Of a DNA stretch of 64,000 nucleotides, positions 14,784-25,479 are shown piece by piece. The DNA comes from Paludibaculum fermentans. GTDB taxonomy: Bacteria; Acidobacteriota; Terriglobia; Bryobacterales; Bryobacteraceae. The stretch lies in contig NZ_CP063849.1 in the NCBI RefSeq assembly GCF_015277775.1, positions 8,509,501-8,573,500 of the forward strand. The letters run 5' to 3'. The translations under genes were made by a program, and so were the position numbers. The notes below the pieces were generated by a model. That model saw only the letters and a list, made by a program, of their open reading frames with translations, was not told where the DNA came from and did not search any database. The first letter of the stretch is position 1. Every line of letters begins with the position of its first letter.

Positions 14784-15980
14784 ATGTCTGGTATGCCGCA
14801 AGCCCGCCCCCCGCGGAATCCGGATGGCAGCCCGCCCTGCCTGCACCAGGCCGTTGGCGGCACCGCGGCGTGGCGCCGGCTCTCCGAAGCGTTCTACGGC
14901 CGCGTCGCACAGGATCCACGTCTCCGCCACCTCTTTCCGGGCAAGTCCTTTCACTGCGCCATCGAGGAACTCACCGCCTTCCTCGTTCAACTCTTTGGCG
15001 GGCCCGGCGGCGATACCCAGCGCCGTTGGTGGCTCAGTCTCCACGAGTCGCACCAGCGCTTCAAGATCGGGCACGAGGAGCGCGCCGCCTGGCTGGAGAA
15101 CATGCGGTCCACCCTCGACGACATGCCCATGGCGCCGGAACACCGCGCCGCCCTGCTCAGGTTCTTCGAGGACTCCTCCGCCCATGTCGTGAATACCGGC
15201 GGCCCGGTCCCCACCGCCGCACTCCCGGCAAACCAGCCCGCCGGCGCAACAGAACAGGAGATTGCCCGCCGCTGGCAGGGCCAGTGCGCCCTCGACCAGT
15301 TCGTGGCCGCTCTCCGGGCAAACAATGCGGAATCGGCCCTGTCCCTCATGGATGGCCAGGTCCTGCTCGAGCGGTTCCAGTACGACCGTTCCGGGCTCGC
15401 GGGCGTGCTCGGACTCATGCTTGGGGTGGACCACCCCTCCATCCAGGCGTACGTCCACACGCGTCTCACCATGGACCCGACCCTCGTAACCGAGCGCTTC
15501 GCCGGCCGCACCCTCCTCCACCAGGCCGCCGCCCTCGGCCACCGGCCGTTCGTGGAACTGCTTCTGCGTCTGGGTGCGGATCCCAACGGAATGGACGGCG
15601 GCGAGCACACGCCGCTCTATTCGCTCGCCAACGAATACCGCGGCAACGATGGCGGGCCGCTCGTCCGGATTCTCGTGCAGGCCGGCTCCAAGGTTGACGC
15701 GAATGGTGGAGCCAAACGCTGCACCGCCCTCCACATGGCCGCTCGCCGGGGCAGCGTGGAAATTGCCGAGGCCCTGCTGGACTGCGGAGCAGCCATCGAA
15801 GCCCGCGACAGCCTGGGCGAAACGCCGCTCCGCCGAGCCGTCAATTGCGACAAGATCCGGGTCGCGGCTCTCCTTCTCAACCGCTCAGCGGACCCGCACT
15901 CCCTGGGCAGCAAACGCCGCACCCCATTCCTCGCCGCCCGCTCAGAGGCGATGAAAGCCCTGTTGCAGTCGCGCAAATGA
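14784..15980 (+). CDS. truncated hemoglobin fused to ankyrin repeats
   Basis: The 398-residue protein has two clear parts. Residues about 18-135 are a group II-like truncated hemoglobin: the VGG opening at 24-26, FY at 37-38, DPRLRHLFP, GGP at 72-74, and SHQRFKIGHEERAAWL in which H90 is the expected proximal heme ligand. Residues about 215-398 form at least four ankyrin repeats (GRTLLHQAAALGHRPFVELL, KRCTALHMAARRGSVEIAEA, GETPLRRAVNCDKIRVAALL). No signal peptide is seen, so it should be cytoplasmic. An oxygen- or NO-responsive scaffold is an inference. ATG 14784 or 14793 both fit. The neighbours give no pathway. Confidence 0.87.
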   Translation: MSGMPQARPPRNPDGSPPCLHQAVGGTAAWRRLSEAFYGRVAQDPRLRHLFPGKSFHCAIEELTAFLVQLFGGPGGDTQRRWWLSLHESHQRFKIGHEERAAWLENMRSTLDDMPMAPEHRAALLRFFEDSSAHVVNTGGPVPTAALPANQPAGATEQEIARRWQGQCALDQFVAALRANNAESALSLMDGQVLLERFQYDRSGLAGVLGLMLGVDHPSIQAYVHTRLTMDPTLVTERFAGRTLLHQAAALGHRPFVELLLRLGADPNGMDGGEHTPLYSLANEYRGNDGGPLVRILVQAGSKVDANGGAKRCTALHMAARRGSVEIAEALLDCGAAIEARDSLGETPLRRAVNCDKIRVAALLLNRSADPHSLGSKRRTPFLAARSEAMKALLQSRK

Positions 15981-16034: not shown

Positions 16035-18782
16035 TCAGAACCGCAGCCGCAGCCCAGCCCACGCCCCGCGCGGGGCACCCGGAGCATAGAACGTCGACTG
16101 CTGTACCGGATATTCTCCATTCGAAGTCGCCGGAAATGGCCGGGCCACGAAGTTCCCTTGCGCCGTGAACCCCGTCGGACCCAGTTGCGCCGCCGAGTAG
16201 TAACACCGGTCCAACAGGTTGTTGATCCGCGCGAACAACTCCACCCGCCGGTGCAGTTGATACCGCGCCCCCAGGTTCACCACCCCATACCCGGCAGACC
16301 GCCCCGGACCCAGATAGTACGTCCCATCGGGCTGATGCTGGTTGTTCTCGTTGCCCCGCGCATACGAACCGGAGGCGCCAATCACGTTCAGATCCACCAG
16401 CAGCTTCGACGTCACCTGGACATCGGCATAGGCCTTCACCAGGTGGCTCGGGATGAGCGGGATATGGCTGCCTGGCTCAATCTCGATCGTCCCCTCCAGC
16501 CCGCGCGAGACCGTCCGCGCCAGATCGTTGCTGCTGTTCCCGCTGCCATTTACCGCCTCGCTGCTCTCAAACGTGGCCCGCAAAAACGTGTAGCCACCTC
16601 CATACGTCACCCTTCCGGCGCGCGCACTCATATCCAGTTCCAGGCCCTGCCGGCGTGTCGTCTCGAAGTTCTTGAAGTAGCCGAACCCCGTCTGCTGCGA
16701 CGCGACAAACAGAATGTCATCGTGATTGGTGGCCCGGAACCACCCCGCGCTCCAGCGCAGCCCATGCTCGCCGCTGCCCCGAACGCCCGCCTCGAACGTC
16801 CTCGTCACCACCTGCTGCAAGGGCGGATCCCCCGCCATCGCGTTCGGCAGCTTGCACGGCGTCTCCGGGTCCGCGCAACCCAACTCGATCGACGTCGGCG
16901 CCCGGCTGCCCTCCGTATATCCGCCATACAAGCTCACCGCTCCTGTCACGCGATACGTCGCGCCGGCCGCCGGATTGAACCGCCGGAACTCGTGCCAGCC
17001 CGTCAACGAGCCGCTGCCCGCCGCCGGACGGATCCGGTCGAGGTTGTCGATCGTCGTCCGGTTGAACCGCCCCGAGACCGTGAGATTCAGCCGGCCCGCC
17101 GTCAGCGTATCCGTGGCGTACACACTGGCGCTGTGCATGCGCCCGCTCAGGTTCACCCGGACGTCGAAGGGTTCGCCGTCCACGTCACCGCCGGTCACGC
17201 CATCGCCGAATGCGCCCGTGCCCACCACGCTCCGGTCCGGAGCCAGGTACCCCAGCTCGGACGATTGTTCGAACCCCACGCTGTTCCCGTCATACGCCGC
17301 TCCCGCGGTCAACTGGTTTCGGTACCGGCCCATCCGCCCGAACCAGCTCACCTGCCCGGATAGTCCGTAATTGCGCTGCTGCGAGGCGCCGCGGTTGATC
17401 AGGCCGTTGCACTTCTCCCCGGGCTCATCGCCCAACAGAACATTGCCGATACAGCGCCAGAACGGGAATGGCGTGTTCGCCGCCGTGGCGCCGGATGTGG
17501 GGAACCCCGTATACCCGGCCGCCGTCAACGCCGCCCGCTCCGCCGCACCGGGCTGATAAACCGACTGGTCCAGCGAGTTTTCGTTGATGTCGCCGTTCAG
17601 TGTCCTCGTGCGGATGTGCCGGAAATAGGCATTGCCGGAAAAGGTCAGGGCATTCGAAAAGCTGTGCCGCAGTTGCAGATTCACAAACGGCGAACGGTTC
17701 GCCGTCTGGTCCGGTTTCGTATAGACGCTGCGGTAATCGCGCTCCAGCAAACGAAGCTCCTGCAGCCCGTTCCCAATCAGCGTATTGTTCGCGTACGCCA
17801 GCGTCAGGCCAATCGACGTCCTCTCGCGCTGCCGCCCGATCTTCCCCAGAAACTGCCGCACATTCGAAGGCGACGACGCGCGCCAGCCATCCTCGAAGAA
17901 CAGGCTGCTCGCCAGGTACCAGTGGAGCCCCTTGGCGGTCGACCCGCCGTGCTCCAGCTCAGCCGTCTTCCGCCCGAAGCTGCCGCCGCTCAATTGCACC
18001 GAAGTGCCCGGATGGCTGATGCCGTCTTTCGTCCGCAGTGAGAGCGCGCCGCCCAGCGTGTTCAACCCGAAGAGAGGATCCGACCCTGCGATCATCGCCA
18101 TCTCGGCCACCGCCACGCGCGGAATCAGATCCCAACTCACCACATCTCCGAACGGCTGGTTCAGCCGCACCCCGTCCATGTAGACCGACACACCCTGCGG
18201 CGTCCCCAACAGCGGCGAGGCCGTATAGCCGCGAAAGTTCACATCCGGCTGCAGCGGGTTCCCCTGGATCTCATTCACATAAACATTCGCCAGACGCCGG
18301 TTCAGGAAGTCGGACACATCCAGCGCCCCGCTGGCTTCGAGATCCCGGTCTGTCGCCGCCTTCGCTGGGGCGGGCATCTCCTCCAGCAGCCGGTCCAGTC
18401 CGGCCAGAGGAGTCGCGCTCACCACCGAAACGGCGTACGAAGACGCTCCAATCTCCAGGCGGATCGTGCGCTGCACCGCGGCGTTCCCTGCGATCTCGAG
18501 AGTCTCCGTATAAGTGGCGAAGCCCTCCTTGGTGAGCCGCAGCCGGTAGCGGCCCGCAGGCAGCCCGGACACCGTGCCCAGCCCGCGCCGGTCGCACTGG
18601 AAACTCCGCCGGAACCCCGAGTGCAGGCCCTCCAGCCATCCGTGCGCCTCCACCGCCGCGCCCGACCCATCTTTGACCTCCACCTGGATCTCGCCGGCAG
18701 GAGCCTGCCCAACGAGAGCCGGCAGGCACGACAACAACAGCAGAACAATCAGGCGCATCGGACGCTGCCAGAACAGAGCCAT
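16035..18782 (-). CDS. TonB-dependent receptor with carboxypeptidase-like N-terminal domain
   Basis: The 915-residue outer-membrane receptor has a signal peptide ([17 protein letters not shown] within the first 25 residues). A CarboxypepD_reg-like domain ([39 protein letters not shown]) precedes the plug ([44 protein letters not shown]) and a 22-strand-type barrel ending in an aromatic strand ([10 protein letters not shown]). It imports a large or scarce substrate with TonB energy; the substrate is unknown. It is divergent from an ECF sigma/anti-sigma pair. There is no STN signalling domain, so Fec-like signalling is not supported. ATG 18758 is an alternative start. Confidence 0.92.
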
Positions 18783-18876
18783 ATGAGGAACATTCGTGCC
18801 GGGCCCCATCTGTTCAGGGTATTTTCGCCTGCCCCCAGCGCAGCCGCGAAAACGCCCCAACCCTCATGCCCCCGCT

Positions 18877-18885
18877 TGCTACAAT
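18877..18885 (+). promoter_or_regulatory. extended -10 promoter element for the sigma factor gene
   Basis: TGCTACAAT (TGn plus TACAAT) lies 28 nt upstream of ATG 18914. Its position makes the earlier in-frame ATG 18866 unlikely as the start. The same CTACAAT core occurs at two other gene starts in the window. Confidence 0.4.
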
Positions 18886-18913: not shown

Positions 18914-19465
18914 ATGTCAGAATTCTCCTGGACCCAACTGGCTCGTATCGTCTCTACCCGGGAACAGGATCCACCCAATCCCACCCACGACGAAGTCGTC
19001 CGCTTCTTCACGGAACTCAGAACCCCGCTCCTTCGCTATCTCTACACCCTGGGACTCCCGCTCAGCGAAGGCGAGGACGTCGCCCAGGAAACCTTCCTCG
19101 CCCTCCACCGCCATCTGCTCGAAGGTAAGCCGCGCGACAACCTCCACGGCTGGGTCTTCCGTGTAGCCCGCAACCTCGCCCTGAAGCGCCTGCAGCGGGC
19201 TGCCACCACCGGTGGAGAACCCGATTTCCATGACCTCACCGACCCCGCCCCCAACCCGGAGCAGCAGGCTGTCCGCACCCAACAGCAGCGCGCCATCCAG
19301 TCGGTGATTGCCGCCCTGCCGGACCTCGACCGCCAGTGCCTCTATCTCCGCGCCGAAGGACTCCGCTACCGCGACATCGCCCAGGCTCTCGACATCTCCC
19401 TGGGCTCCGTAGCCCAGGCCCTCAGCCGGGCCCTCGACAAACTCGCCCGGGCGGCCCAACGCTAA
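18914..19465 (+). CDS. ECF-type RNA polymerase sigma factor
   Basis: The 183-residue protein has region 2 (FFTELRTPLLRYLYTLGLPLSEGEDVAQETFLALH, about residues 29-65) and region 4 (IAALPDLDRQCLYLRAEGLRYRDIAQALDISLGSVAQALSRAL, about 125-175). It directs RNA polymerase to stress or envelope promoters. The anti-sigma gene follows 119 nt later on the same strand, and the TonB receptor is divergent. ATG 18914 was chosen because a promoter-like extended -10 sits between it and ATG 18866; no Shine-Dalgarno is visible before either. Confidence 0.92.
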   Translation: MSEFSWTQLARIVSTREQDPPNPTHDEVVRFFTELRTPLLRYLYTLGLPLSEGEDVAQETFLALHRHLLEGKPRDNLHGWVFRVARNLALKRLQRAATTGGEPDFHDLTDPAPNPEQQAVRTQQQRAIQSVIAALPDLDRQCLYLRAEGLRYRDIAQALDISLGSVAQALSRALDKLARAAQR

Positions 19466-19584
19466 CGCCATGGCAATCTCCAGGAAAAAACAATGAACAG
19501 AATCGGGGTCGAGGGAATATCGCAGCAGGAGCAGCCTCGCCGCAAGCAGGGCTTGGACCACAAGCCGAGCGGTGGCGCATCAGC

Positions 19585-20406
19585 ATGAAGCCGGAAGCGC
19601 ACATCTCAGAAGAGGAACTCGTCCTGGCCATGGACGGCGAGTTGGAGGCGCCGCGCGCCGCCGAGGTAAGCCGCCACCTGCTCCACTGTTGGGAGTGCCG
19701 CGCCCGCCGCACCCGCCTGGAGCAATCCATAGCCGACTACATGGAGCTCCATCGTTCCGCCCCCTGCCCGGCCATCCCACCGGTGGAGGGACCCGCGGCC
19801 AAACTCCGGGCCAGCCTCCGTCTTGAAACCGCGCCAACCGCCGCGCAGCCCTGGTGGCGTTGGGCCTGGACGCGAGCCACACCCTCCCTCGTGGCCGGCT
19901 CCCTGGCGCTCGTCATCACGCCGCTGGCCCTGATCCTCTGGCTAAGCTCCGCCAAAGTGGAAGCCGCCGGCCCGCTGCCCGATGGCCGCCTGACACCCGG
20001 AGCGGCCCGGATCATCTCAAAACAGCAGGTCTGCGTCGCCCCCGCCGGAGACGAAGGCCGTCTCGTCCCGGCCCAACTCGCCCGGCGCGTCTTCGAGGAA
20101 TACCGCATCTCGAACCCGAGGCCGCGCAGCTACGAAGTGGACTACCTCATCAGCCCGTCGCTCGGCGGCTCCAGCGAACTCAGTAACCTCTGGCCGGTCC
20201 CTTACGACCAAGGCCTTTGGACATCGAGAGTGAAAGATGCGCTGGAAGACCACCTGCGAACGCTCGTCTGCGAGGGTCAACTGGACCTGCCCACCGCCCA
20301 GCGCGAGATCTCAACCAACTGGATCGCGGCCTACCAGAAGTACTTCCGGACCAAGAAGCCGATGGCAGCGCACGCCCGCTTCGTCAAAGACAGCCCCTGG
20401 GAATAG
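19585..20406 (+). CDS. zinc-finger anti-sigma factor with extracytoplasmic HNH-like domain
   Basis: The 273-residue protein begins with a ZAS-type zinc site, H31-x3-C35-x2-C38, in a helical domain that should bind the adjacent sigma factor. A single membrane segment lies at about 101-120. The outside part (about 121-273) resembles secreted HNH-like proteins, with the pattern YEVD-x-LI, LGG, NLWP and a C-terminal VCEGQLDLPTAQREISTNW. The usual catalytic DH is D186-Y187 here, so nuclease activity is doubtful and a sensing role more likely. Two cysteines (C150 and the one in LVCEG) may form a disulfide. The start is the ATG fitting the anti-sigma domain; its Shine-Dalgarno is weak. Confidence 0.82.
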   Translation: MKPEAHISEEELVLAMDGELEAPRAAEVSRHLLHCWECRARRTRLEQSIADYMELHRSAPCPAIPPVEGPAAKLRASLRLETAPTAAQPWWRWAWTRATPSLVAGSLALVITPLALILWLSSAKVEAAGPLPDGRLTPGAARIISKQQVCVAPAGDEGRLVPAQLARRVFEEYRISNPRPRSYEVDYLISPSLGGSSELSNLWPVPYDQGLWTSRVKDALEDHLRTLVCEGQLDLPTAQREISTNWIAAYQKYFRTKKPMAAHARFVKDSPWE

Positions 20407-23024: not shown

Positions 23025-25301
23025 CTATTTACCTGCCTGCCCGGCGCCGCCCGTGCTCGCCGCATACGTCTCGTCCGGCGTCGGCAGCCCGCCCGTCGCC
23101 CACTTCTCATTCGGCTGCGCACCCATCCGGAACCGCAGCGTCCCTCCGTTCACAATCTCGCTGTGCGAGATCCACGAGCGGTCCAGCGGCCGGCCGTTCA
23201 AGGTCGCCGACTGCACATAGATCTCATCCTCCGACTTCCGCGCCGCTTCCACCGTGAACCGCTTCCCATTCTCCAGCCGGATGCTGGCCTTCTGGAACAG
23301 TGGCGACCCGATGGCATAAATCGGCTGCCCCGGATTCACCGGATAGAACCCCAACGCGCTGAAGATGTACCAGGCCGACATTTGCCCGTTGTCCTCATCG
23401 CCCAGCCAGCCCGCCGGACCCGGCTTGTAGTTCCGCACCATTACTTCATGCGCCCACTTCTGCGCCTTCCACGGCTGGCCCGCATAGTCGTACAGGTAGA
23501 TCACGTGGTGTACCGGCTCGTTGATGTGCGCATACTGCCCCATCTCGCCCATCTTCGCTTCCGTCATCTCGTGGATCACCTGCTTGTAGCCGCCCACCTT
23601 GAAATCTGTCGTCGTGCTGAACAGTTCGTCCAGCTTCTTCAGGAACGCATCGCGGCCGCCCATCAGCGCCATCAGCCCCGGAACGTCATGCTGCACGGAC
23701 CAAAGCCATTGCCACGCGTTGCCTTCGGTGAACACTCCACCCCAGTCCAGCGGATCGAACGGAGTCAACCACGACCCATCCCGGTTCCGCCCGCGCATGT
23801 AGCCCGTCGACGCGTCATACAGGTTGCGGTACGACTTCGCCTGCTTCATGAACCGCTCGTAGTCATCCTTCTTGCCCAATGCCCGCGCCACCTGCGCGAC
23901 GCAGAAATCGTCGTACGCATACTCCAGCGTCCGCGCGGCCGACTCCTGCACGCCGCCATCGGCCGGCACGTAGCCCAGTTTCAGGTAATCCTCGATGCCC
24001 AGCCGCGCTTTGAAGACCCCGGTGCCCGGCAGCGTCGCGTCCTTGCGGATCGCGGCATACGCCTTCTCGATATCAAACCCGCGGATCCCCTTCATGTAGG
24101 CGTCAGCCACGGCCGAGTCGCCGTGCGTGCCGATCATCACGTTGCGCTCAATCGGGTTCGGCCATGTCGGAATCCATCCGCCCTCTTCATACGTATGCAC
24201 CATCGCCCGCATGATCTCCGCGTTGCGGCTCGGGCTGGCCACCGTCAACAAGGGGAACTGGGCGCGGAACACGTCCCAGAAACCGATATCCGTGAACATG
24301 GGGCCCGCGTGCACCTTGCCGTCGTAGAGCCCGTAATGCACCGTCTCGCCCTTCGCGTCCGTCTCGTTCAGCATCCGCGGAAACTGCAGCGAGTGGTAGT
24401 AAGCCGTGTAGAACGTCTTTCGCTGCTCGGCCGTGCCGCCCTGGATCTCGAACGTCGCCAGGGCGCGATCCCACACCTGCTGCGCCGCCGCGGCCGCCGC
24501 GTCCACATCGGCCTTGGGCAGTTCGGCCTTCATGGCGCGTTCCGCCTGCTCCAGGCTGATCAGCGACGTACCCACGCGTACCGTCACCACCTCGCCCGCG
24601 CGGAAGCCAACATACGCGCCCGTATGCGGGCCTGAGCGTTTCTTCGCCTCGTCCTTGGCACCCTTGATGTCCCACGTGCCGGACGACGTGAAAGGCTTGT
24701 CAAACTCGGCCACGAAATAGACCGCGAACCCGGGCACCGACCCGCGCGCCGTCAGCGAGTTCGTCCCCGTGATCCGGTTCGACTCCGGGTGGATCTCCAC
24801 TGAGCTGCCGCCGTTGTTGGCATCCAGCACCACCCAGGCGTCGCCCTCCTTGGGAAACGTGAATCGTAGAATCCCGCCGTGCGCGCTCGGCGCCATCGAG
24901 ACTTTCGTCTTGTAGTCGTCCAGCAGCACGTCATACCGGTAGGCCTTCGCCGTCTCGTTCGCATGCTGGAACTTCGAGCCCCGCTGATCCGGCAGCACTT
25001 TCAGCGGACCCGTGCCGGGCATGATCGAGAACGAGCCCCAGTCAATGGTCCAGGCCGAAGGACGATGCGTCATCCGGAAGCCCCGGATATTGTCCTTGGC
25101 GTACTGATAGGGCCAGCCGCCGTCGCCGGTCTGGGCGGTCCAGGCCGCCATTGCATAGGGGATGAAGATGGCCGGATAGGTGTTGCCGCGAGACAACTCG
25201 TATTTGGAATCGGTGCCCACCAGGGGGTCGGGCAGATCCGACAGGCGATCCGCGCCGGAGCACAGCGACAGGCAGAGGAGGGGAAGAAGAAAACGTTGCA
25301 T
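23025..25301 (-). CDS. GH92 family glycosidase (alpha-mannosidase type), secreted, second copy
   Basis: This 758-residue enzyme has a signal peptide (MQRFLLPLLCLSLCSG) and then DPLVGTDSKYELSRGNTYPAIFIPYAM, a GH92 opening clearly different from the first copy. Other signatures are EEGGWIPTWPNPIERNVMIG, GDSAVADAYMKGIRGFD and WLGDEDNGQMSAWYIFSALGFY. The two copies belong to different GH92 subgroups by eye and so probably cleave different alpha-mannosidic linkages. ATG 25301 begins the signal peptide; GTG/ATG starts further up have no such signal. No Shine-Dalgarno is clear. The esterase gene 25480 is divergent. Confidence 0.92.
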   Translation of the reverse strand: MQRFLLPLLCLSLCSGADRLSDLPDPLVGTDSKYELSRGNTYPAIFIPYAMAAWTAQTGDGGWPYQYAKDNIRGFRMTHRPSAWTIDWGSFSIMPGTGPLKVLPDQRGSKFQHANETAKAYRYDVLLDDYKTKVSMAPSAHGGILRFTFPKEGDAWVVLDANNGGSSVEIHPESNRITGTNSLTARGSVPGFAVYFVAEFDKPFTSSGTWDIKGAKDEAKKRSGPHTGAYVGFRAGEVVTVRVGTSLISLEQAERAMKAELPKADVDAAAAAAQQVWDRALATFEIQGGTAEQRKTFYTAYYHSLQFPRMLNETDAKGETVHYGLYDGKVHAGPMFTDIGFWDVFRAQFPLLTVASPSRNAEIMRAMVHTYEEGGWIPTWPNPIERNVMIGTHGDSAVADAYMKGIRGFDIEKAYAAIRKDATLPGTGVFKARLGIEDYLKLGYVPADGGVQESAARTLEYAYDDFCVAQVARALGKKDDYERFMKQAKSYRNLYDASTGYMRGRNRDGSWLTPFDPLDWGGVFTEGNAWQWLWSVQHDVPGLMALMGGRDAFLKKLDELFSTTTDFKVGGYKQVIHEMTEAKMGEMGQYAHINEPVHHVIYLYDYAGQPWKAQKWAHEVMVRNYKPGPAGWLGDEDNGQMSAWYIFSALGFYPVNPGQPIYAIGSPLFQKASIRLENGKRFTVEAARKSEDEIYVQSATLNGRPLDRSWISHSEIVNGGTLRFRMGAQPNEKWATGGLPTPDETYAASTGGAGQAGK

Positions 25302-25479
25302 GGCTAGGGGTATAAATCCACCTACCATGTTAGTCCGAATGAGATGCGCGGCTCTGAAACACCAATGCGTGGCCCCGTCAGGACCGGTTGGGGAATCGGC
25401 CCTGCCCGCCTTCCCTGGGCTTGCTCCCGCCCGGCAACAACGGCAGAATTGAGCTTCGCCCCCTGGCGATCCCAATCCG

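Follow-up and report, generated by a model that had tools for sequence, protein, structure and literature searches.

What does an ECF sigma factor of Paludibaculum fermentans switch on when its anti-sigma partner carries a domain resembling secreted HNH-like proteins, and what might such a domain sense? We analyzed this locus in a stretch of 64,000 nucleotides, hereafter the window, taken from the 9.53 Mb genome of this soil bacterium, a member of the Acidobacteriota. The answer that we consider probable is a receptor-control circuit in which a repurposed, catalytically disabled HNH domain acts as the periplasmic sensor. The first-pass annotation of the locus, made from the sequence, was right in recognizing a zinc-associated (ZAS) anti-sigma factor with an HNH-like domain, but overlooked the receptor partner. 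Likewise, the coordinates and motifs that it gave for the sigma and anti-sigma genes are each present in the sequence, but the unit is larger, as it also includes a divergent receptor gene and two promoter elements.

The sigma factor, the anti-sigma factor and its outer domain

The two genes and the main features of the anti-sigma protein are as follows.

18914-19465, plus strand: ECF sigma factor gene (Pfam Sigma70_r4_2, 1.3e-13, and Sigma70_r2, 1.3e-8; TIGR02937, 1.3e-21)
19585-20406, plus strand: anti-sigma gene, 273 amino acids
19585-19764, plus strand: N-terminal anti-sigma domain, residues 1-60, with H31-x3-C35-x2-C38 in the sequence
19888-19944, plus strand: membrane helix, residues 102-120 (hydropathy; AF2 helix 100-126)
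19966-20403, plus strand: outer HNH-like domain, residues 128-273 (AF2 pLDDT 87, pTM 0.83; homology to secreted HNH-like proteins)
20032-20034, plus strand: C150, invariant in fused forms (72/72), probable disulfide partner of C229
20140-20145, plus strand: D186-Y187, in the place of the DH motif of free-standing relatives (sequence and family counts)
20269-20271, plus strand: C229, probable disulfide partner of C150

The sigma frame runs from the ATG at 18914 to the stop at 19465, with an in-frame alternative ATG upstream at 18866, and encodes an ordinary ECF factor with regions 2 and 4 only (Pfam; TIGR02937 above its cut-off). The anti-sigma frame, from the ATG at 19585 to the stop at 20406, has the previously noted zinc site at its N-terminus (H31, C35, and C38). 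Only zf-HC2 matched this protein in Pfam at E up to 1, below threshold (E 0.012; 16.1 bits against a cut-off of 22.2), and no FecR-type domain was found there. With Foldseek, the N-terminal domain matched RsiW, ChrR, and RslA, every E being above 3. The single membrane helix proposed earlier agrees with hydropathy, since residues 102-120 form the only strongly hydrophobic stretch (Kyte-Doolittle mean 2.37, next best elsewhere 0.55). The protein probably holds the sigma factor in check. A chance resemblance is argued against by homologs of the whole anti-sigma protein in two congeneric genomes, with 81 and 82% identity, and by the presence of the outer domain in 114 of the 257 genomes of the order, free-standing forms included. 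Further downstream, a glycosyl hydrolase family 92 protein is encoded at 23025-25475 on the minus strand, with both of its domains matched (1.7e-180 and 8.8e-57).

The outer domain carries the motifs YEVD (183), LGG (193), NLWP (201), VCEG (228), and QREI (239). In searches with the window sequence alone, no Pfam (E up to 1), NCBIfam, or PHROG model matched it, and thus no HNH assignment was obtained. The relatives do match HNH profiles, though weakly: among 73 family members scanned, fused forms included, hits in Pfam at E up to 1 were to Endonuclea_NS_2 (51/73), HNH (42/73), and HNH_5 (33/73), the best E-value being 3.1e-4. An AF2 model of the domain, built with 73 sequences, has a strand at 183-187, a strand at 202-206, and a helix at 214-229; in this prediction the order is the bba one expected for HNH proteins, and the D-H/Y pair closes the first strand. 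Thus, as far as structure prediction goes, the outer part does not fold unlike HNH proteins, and the HNH-like character of its free-standing relatives together with the bba order bears out the kinship with secreted HNH-like proteins proposed before.

Matches to solved structures were weak. Foldseek with the domain model gave no match with E below 0.001, and profile searches ranked an unrelated designed protein (0.33) ahead of Cas8-HNH (0.49), which came first in another run (0.24). In a structural second look (VIA) at rows taken from Foldseek's own list, 15 of 31 were titled HNH, 11 of these 15 belonging to one Cas8-HNH system, and one row was a TetR regulator; every Z was 3.8 or less. Most of the remaining rows are nucleases that we take to be of the bba-Me type. 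DotN chains were also present among the rows, and DotN exemplifies an HNH-like fold that is put to use without cleaving a substrate. Because single-sequence searches gave no assignment and the profile matches to solved structures were weak, the HNH case rests on the relatives and the predicted fold; we regard HNH ancestry of the domain as likely, not proven. Finally, C150 or C229 is missing in six sequences, and five of these six lack both, which suggests a disulfide between the two residues as a probable feature of the domain.

The catalytic site and the origin of the fusion

After removal of identical domain sequences, the family comprises 158 unique sequences, 72 fused and 86 free-standing, a sequence being counted as fused if the zinc motif lies upstream (71) or, in one case (L192), if it has a sigma neighbor. 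A sigma ORF is found upstream, within the stretch examined, in 67 of the 72 unique fused sequences, and three of the other five had under 800 bases upstream; hence the co-occurrence with sigma genes that the first-pass annotation proposed to look for in other Acidobacteriota is indeed observed.

Residue 187 distinguishes the two groups. In the 72 fused domains it is tyrosine in 65, phenylalanine in one, and histidine in six, whereas in the 86 free-standing ones it is histidine in 82, tyrosine in one (L203), and unreadable in three. L203 is incomplete, beginning at the edge of its contig, and may itself be fused. The described replacement of the catalytic DH by D186-Y187 recurs in most fused forms, with tyrosine or phenylalanine in 66 of 72 fused domains against histidine in 82 of 83 readable free-standing ones. 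In the window the general-base histidine after the aspartate is absent, and the domain is probably catalytically inactive. The notion of a domain stripped of activity fits the window, but has to be qualified for a clade of six fused sequences (L027-L031 and L033) that carry His187. As this clade is nested within the tyrosine clade, the histidine appears, on the domain tree described below, to have returned once. The other site residues (D186, N201, K217, D218, C150, and C229) are kept in all 72 fused sequences, which suggests a conserved binding surface. Position 213, at the start of the helix and presumed to be a metal ligand, is asparagine in 50 fused domains, threonine in 16, including the window, aspartate in five, and serine in one.

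The free-standing forms have DH at 186-187 and neither the zinc motif nor an adjacent sigma gene of this kind, in contrast to the window protein, with which they share LTPG, GG, NLWP, KD and, in most cases, the cysteine pair. A hydrophobic stretch precedes the domain in 79 of 86, four being too short to tell and three lacking it. They occur in Acidobacteriota, in records titled Armatimonadetes, Gemmatimonadetes, and Methylobacter, and on 43 plasmid records. For instance, a pattern scan returned 17 loci, of which 13 were fused, all in records titled Acidobacteria or its families and genera, and four were free-standing, in records titled Armatimonadetes (2), Gemmatimonadetes, and Methylobacter. 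Free-standing forms were also seen at no fewer than 80 viral-contig loci (at least L074-L153), with DH in all 61 readable unique sequences; one free-standing query, run at 1e-5 against 50,697 phage records, matched none of them. Three divergent relatives (L072, L073, and L214) have a membrane-like hydrophobic stretch before the domain, keep DH, and have both conserved cysteines replaced; they are possibly another membrane-anchored subfamily.

The distribution is patchy. The domain is present in three of nine genomes searched in the genus of the window, and in 17 of 396 genomes drawn evenly from the phylum, for each of which 10 candidates were scored. A tree was built from 151 domains (125 columns, column 187 retained; L203, L072, L073, L214, and rows under 100 residues left out), and in it the fused domains form one clade with support 100/94, consistent with a single origin of the fusion. 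The rows closest to this clade are free-standing acidobacterial domains (L201, L202, and L205), although support for the branches that join them is lower (92/14 and 87/91). Another copy of the domain, encoded elsewhere in the genome, was considered as a binding partner and is ruled out for the window, whose genome has the domain once at E up to 1.

The receptor partner and the promoter element

The remaining features of the unit lie on the other side of the sigma gene and between the two genes.

16035-18758, minus strand: TonB-dependent receptor gene with a CarboxypepD_reg-like N-domain, plug, and barrel (Pfam), divergent from the sigma gene
18790-18822, minus strand: promoter element before the receptor, ATACCCTGAACAGATGGGGCCCGGCACGAATGT (conservation and whole-genome pattern scan)
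18877-18885, plus strand: extended -10-like site upstream of the sigma gene, TGCTACAAT, tentatively a housekeeping-type promoter
19488-19520, plus strand: second copy of the element, AAACAATGAACAGAATCGGGGTCGAGGGAATAT, between the sigma stop and the anti-sigma start (pattern scan)

The genome has a single copy of the receptor (2061 bits, with the next hit at 43), and its closest solved structure is the colicin I receptor (1.4e-4). Among the 257 genomes of the order, 111 have an ortholog at E up to 1e-60 and 103 have the fused anti-sigma factor. Both are found in 83 genomes, only the anti-sigma factor in 20, only the receptor in 28, and neither in 126, giving an odds ratio of 18.7 for these 257 related genomes, uncorrected for kinship; weak or known free-standing hits were removed by hit strength and frame length rather than by a zinc-motif check. 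In 60 of the 83 genomes with both, the two hits share a contig and are no more than 6 kb apart. Adjoining the receptor gene, at 14784-15977 on the plus strand, is a predicted protein that combines a bacterial-like globin (PF01152, 3.5e-18) with ankyrin repeats (PF00023, 1.6e-21), a combination that looks unusual.

The partnership extends to other receptors. Four of the 20 anti-sigma-only genomes, with wide flanks (L196, L197, L199, and L200), have a different CarboxypepD_reg outer-membrane barrel gene nearby, divergent in the first three and on the same strand in L200. Most full-length partners score about 800-1880 bits against the window receptor, whereas those of L197 and L200 score 37 and 32 bits and those of L196 and L199 have no match at 1e-5. 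In the Acidobacteriaceae loci L047, L052, and L053, neither a receptor of the window's subfamily nor a receptor-direction element of score 9 was found in the stretch examined. Conversely, judging by the 28 receptor-only genomes, the receptor may not need the sigma/anti-sigma unit. Ten genes near such unit-less receptors encode a GMC oxidoreductase, an amidohydrolase, a methyltransferase, a RraA-like protein, a pyridine-nucleotide oxidoreductase, two FG-GAP/UnbV proteins, a MacB-like protein, and two proteins without a match; no common theme among these ten points to the receptor substrate.

The element has the form TGAAC-N15-GGAAT, and the consensus in the receptor-sigma spacer is AAAnnC-TGAACA-N14-GGAATAT. 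Of 68 upstream regions, 42 score at least 9 of 10 in the receptor direction and 22 do so in the sigma direction, against 0.35 of 68 in simple base shuffles; the element was derived from these same 68 regions, so the count of 42 is not by itself independent. Across 42 whole genomes with the domain, a stricter and longer pattern gave 41 matches in 30 genomes, none in the other 12, and none with a reversed-pattern control. The window's genome has exactly two strict matches, one before the receptor and one between the sigma and anti-sigma genes. Among all 41, 36 are at the unit or its receptor and one precedes a distant receptor (G550). Another (G573:C41:140797-140829, L235) lies 4 nt before a 794-aa ORF that looks receptor-like by its sequence only, the main receptor being on another contig. 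The three matches elsewhere (G049:C96, G532:C3:342879, and G546:C12) are either chance occurrences or extra targets; the one at G532:C3:342879-342911 (L232) is 22 nt before a 437-aa ORF that resembles a Gfo/Idh oxidoreductase by sequence only.

The element was then compared between receptors with and without the unit. It is present at the receptor start in all 15 loci with an adjacent unit, in 20 of 22 genomes whose anti-sigma gene lies on a different contig (or, once, at a distance of 719 kb), and in two of 16 genomes where no fused anti-sigma factor was found, with almost none in shuffles; thus the element goes with the sigma/anti-sigma pair rather than with the receptor itself. Both exceptions in the last group are fragmented assemblies of genus g42, where the unit is common. 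Since assemblies are broken, some of the 22 non-adjacent cases may be neighbors cut apart; in 18 of them the contig reaches 2 kb or more upstream from the receptor, with no fused anti-sigma factor found on it within 6 kb, and 16 of these 18 have the element. The comparison took 15 of the 60 adjacent cases, 22 of the 23 non-adjacent ones (G059, with the start missing, was left out), and 16 of the 28 receptor-only genomes; the receptor-only loci L248 and L250, with a sigma gene and the element near the contig edge, were set aside. Receptor starts were placed by homology, so distances from the element to the start codon are approximate, and the genomes are related, with kinship uncorrected.

In 67 loci the element precedes the sigma gene in 21, which may reflect operon autoregulation, the anti-sigma gene in six, both in none, and neither in 40. 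Those with the element before the anti-sigma gene are L009 (the window), L011, L012, L013, L014, and L055. Five of these six, and no other of the 67 loci, have the extended -10-like sequence TG(C/G)TA(C/G)AAT before the sigma gene (1.2 expected in shuffles); a scan with the sigma-70 consensus did not flag the site at 18877-18885 and found nothing. Taken together, the two sites indicate that in the window's clade the sigma factor may be expressed constitutively and the anti-sigma factor by feedback.

The proposed circuit, its alternatives and known systems

In the circuit that we favor, a single-pass membrane anti-sigma factor would hold the ECF sigma factor, and its periplasmic half, a repurposed and disabled HNH (bba-Me) nuclease domain, would be the sensor. 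As its signal, this domain would most likely meet either the partner receptor or the cargo of that receptor. Inactivation of the anti-sigma factor, probably by regulated proteolysis, would follow, and the freed sigma factor would read the TGAAC-N15-GGAAT promoter and raise the amount of receptor. In the window's clade it would also raise the anti-sigma factor, closing a negative feedback loop. This circuit is supported by comparative evidence, namely the architecture, the single origin of the fusion, the loss of the catalytic histidine, the receptor partnership, and the promoter element, while sigma binding, reading of the element by the sigma factor, topology, signal, and proteolysis are what we infer. 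The sigma factor appears dedicated to switching on one outer-membrane receptor. As that receptor, with a promoter element of its own, is the best-supported target, the signal more probably concerns what the receptor handles.

The main rival is signaling by direct receptor contact, as in FecA-FecR-FecI, where the N-domain of the receptor would touch the HNH-like domain, substrate binding on the outside would be relayed by protein contact, and the HNH fold would be a docking platform that binds no ligand. We consider it possible but rather doubtful, and it overlaps the favored circuit, which leaves a contact route open. That the receptor is the conserved partner and bears the element speaks for contact, as does a CarboxypepD_reg-like N-terminal match in eight of nine receptors scanned, although it falls below the family cut-off in L200 and the window. 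However, the window receptor gave no match to an STN or Secretin_N signaling domain at E up to 1 (Pfam), and eight other receptors gave none to an STN domain at E up to 0.01; the partner receptor of L218 has no N-terminal domain match at E up to 0.01, and the dissimilar receptors of L196, L197, L199, and L200 pair with the same anti-sigma clade.

Other readings concern the domain itself. HNH folds frequently bind nucleic acids and metals, which would suit a sensor of envelope stress or of extracellular DNA, metal, or wall fragments with a broad response, but the strict element is rare: the genome of the window has two sites, and 38 of the 41 sites from 42 genomes either lie at the unit or precede a receptor or receptor-like ORF. 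More targets would be expected of a stress regulon, with the caveat that the strict pattern can miss weaker sites, and we hold this reading to be improbable. Still lower is our estimate for an active nuclease or phosphodiesterase whose catalytic residue has shifted and whose substrate cleavage would be coupled to signaling: the intact D186, N201, and K217-D218 and the return of histidine in one fused clade would fit it, but 66 of 72 fused domains have another residue in place of the histidine, and the presumed metal ligand N213 is threonine in 16, the window among them. Somewhat less remote, yet unlikely, is surface signaling by nucleic acids, in which the receptor would import nucleic-acid fragments or a nucleotide-like compound, or admit a nuclease bacteriocin, and the pseudo-nuclease would bind this material in the periplasm, leading to receptor induction. 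If true, the sensor would be a pseudo-enzyme derived from a nuclease family whose members are also carried by plasmids and viral contigs.

The favored circuit is known in kind. In the Fec system, an ECF sigma factor and a membrane anti-sigma factor have a TonB-dependent receptor as partner, and the window shares with cell-surface signaling of this type (FecI/FecR/FecA; FoxI/FoxR/FoxA of Pseudomonas) the sigma factor, a membrane anti-sigma factor with a periplasmic domain, the receptor and, judged by conservation, a promoter element before the receptor gene that accompanies the partner sigma factor. It differs in that no STN domain was found in the receptor, and the anti-sigma factor has a zinc motif and an HNH-like domain instead of a FecR-type match. 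RsiW combines an H-x3-C-x2-C motif with a single membrane helix and is encoded directly after its ECF sigma gene; the window protein resembles such zinc-associated membrane anti-sigma factors in all three respects, but has the C-terminal HNH-like domain in addition.

FoxA and FoxR, a TonB-dependent receptor and its anti-sigma partner, are reported to signal by direct contact (PMC11637429). RsiV (PMC5014341) is an anti-sigma factor that serves as a lysozyme receptor, its outer domain binding the ligand before regulated proteolysis; the proposed sensor is similar in using the outer domain as a ligand receptor, but RsiV is Gram-positive and its ligand is known. The term HNH is absent from the main text of a survey of class-I anti-sigma factors (PMC7406223) and from PMC3174227. 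A full-text search of open-licence PMC papers found no anti-sigma factor with an HNH-like outer domain, in keeping with the earlier remark that no system of this layout is known to have been described. Thus the ECF/ZAS receptor-control circuit would be of a known kind, with the HNH-like sensor domain as its new part.

These observations would trace the rise of a new sensory system, in which a secreted nuclease-like domain was fused once to an anti-sigma factor, the catalytic histidine was lost, and the fused circuit was tied to an outer-membrane receptor through a promoter element of its own. Acidobacteriota are rich in ECF sigma factors and outer-membrane receptors that have no assigned role. 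Here the sensor, regulator, promoter, and target form a set defined enough for bench testing, and the cargo of the receptor may be approached by asking what turns the circuit on.
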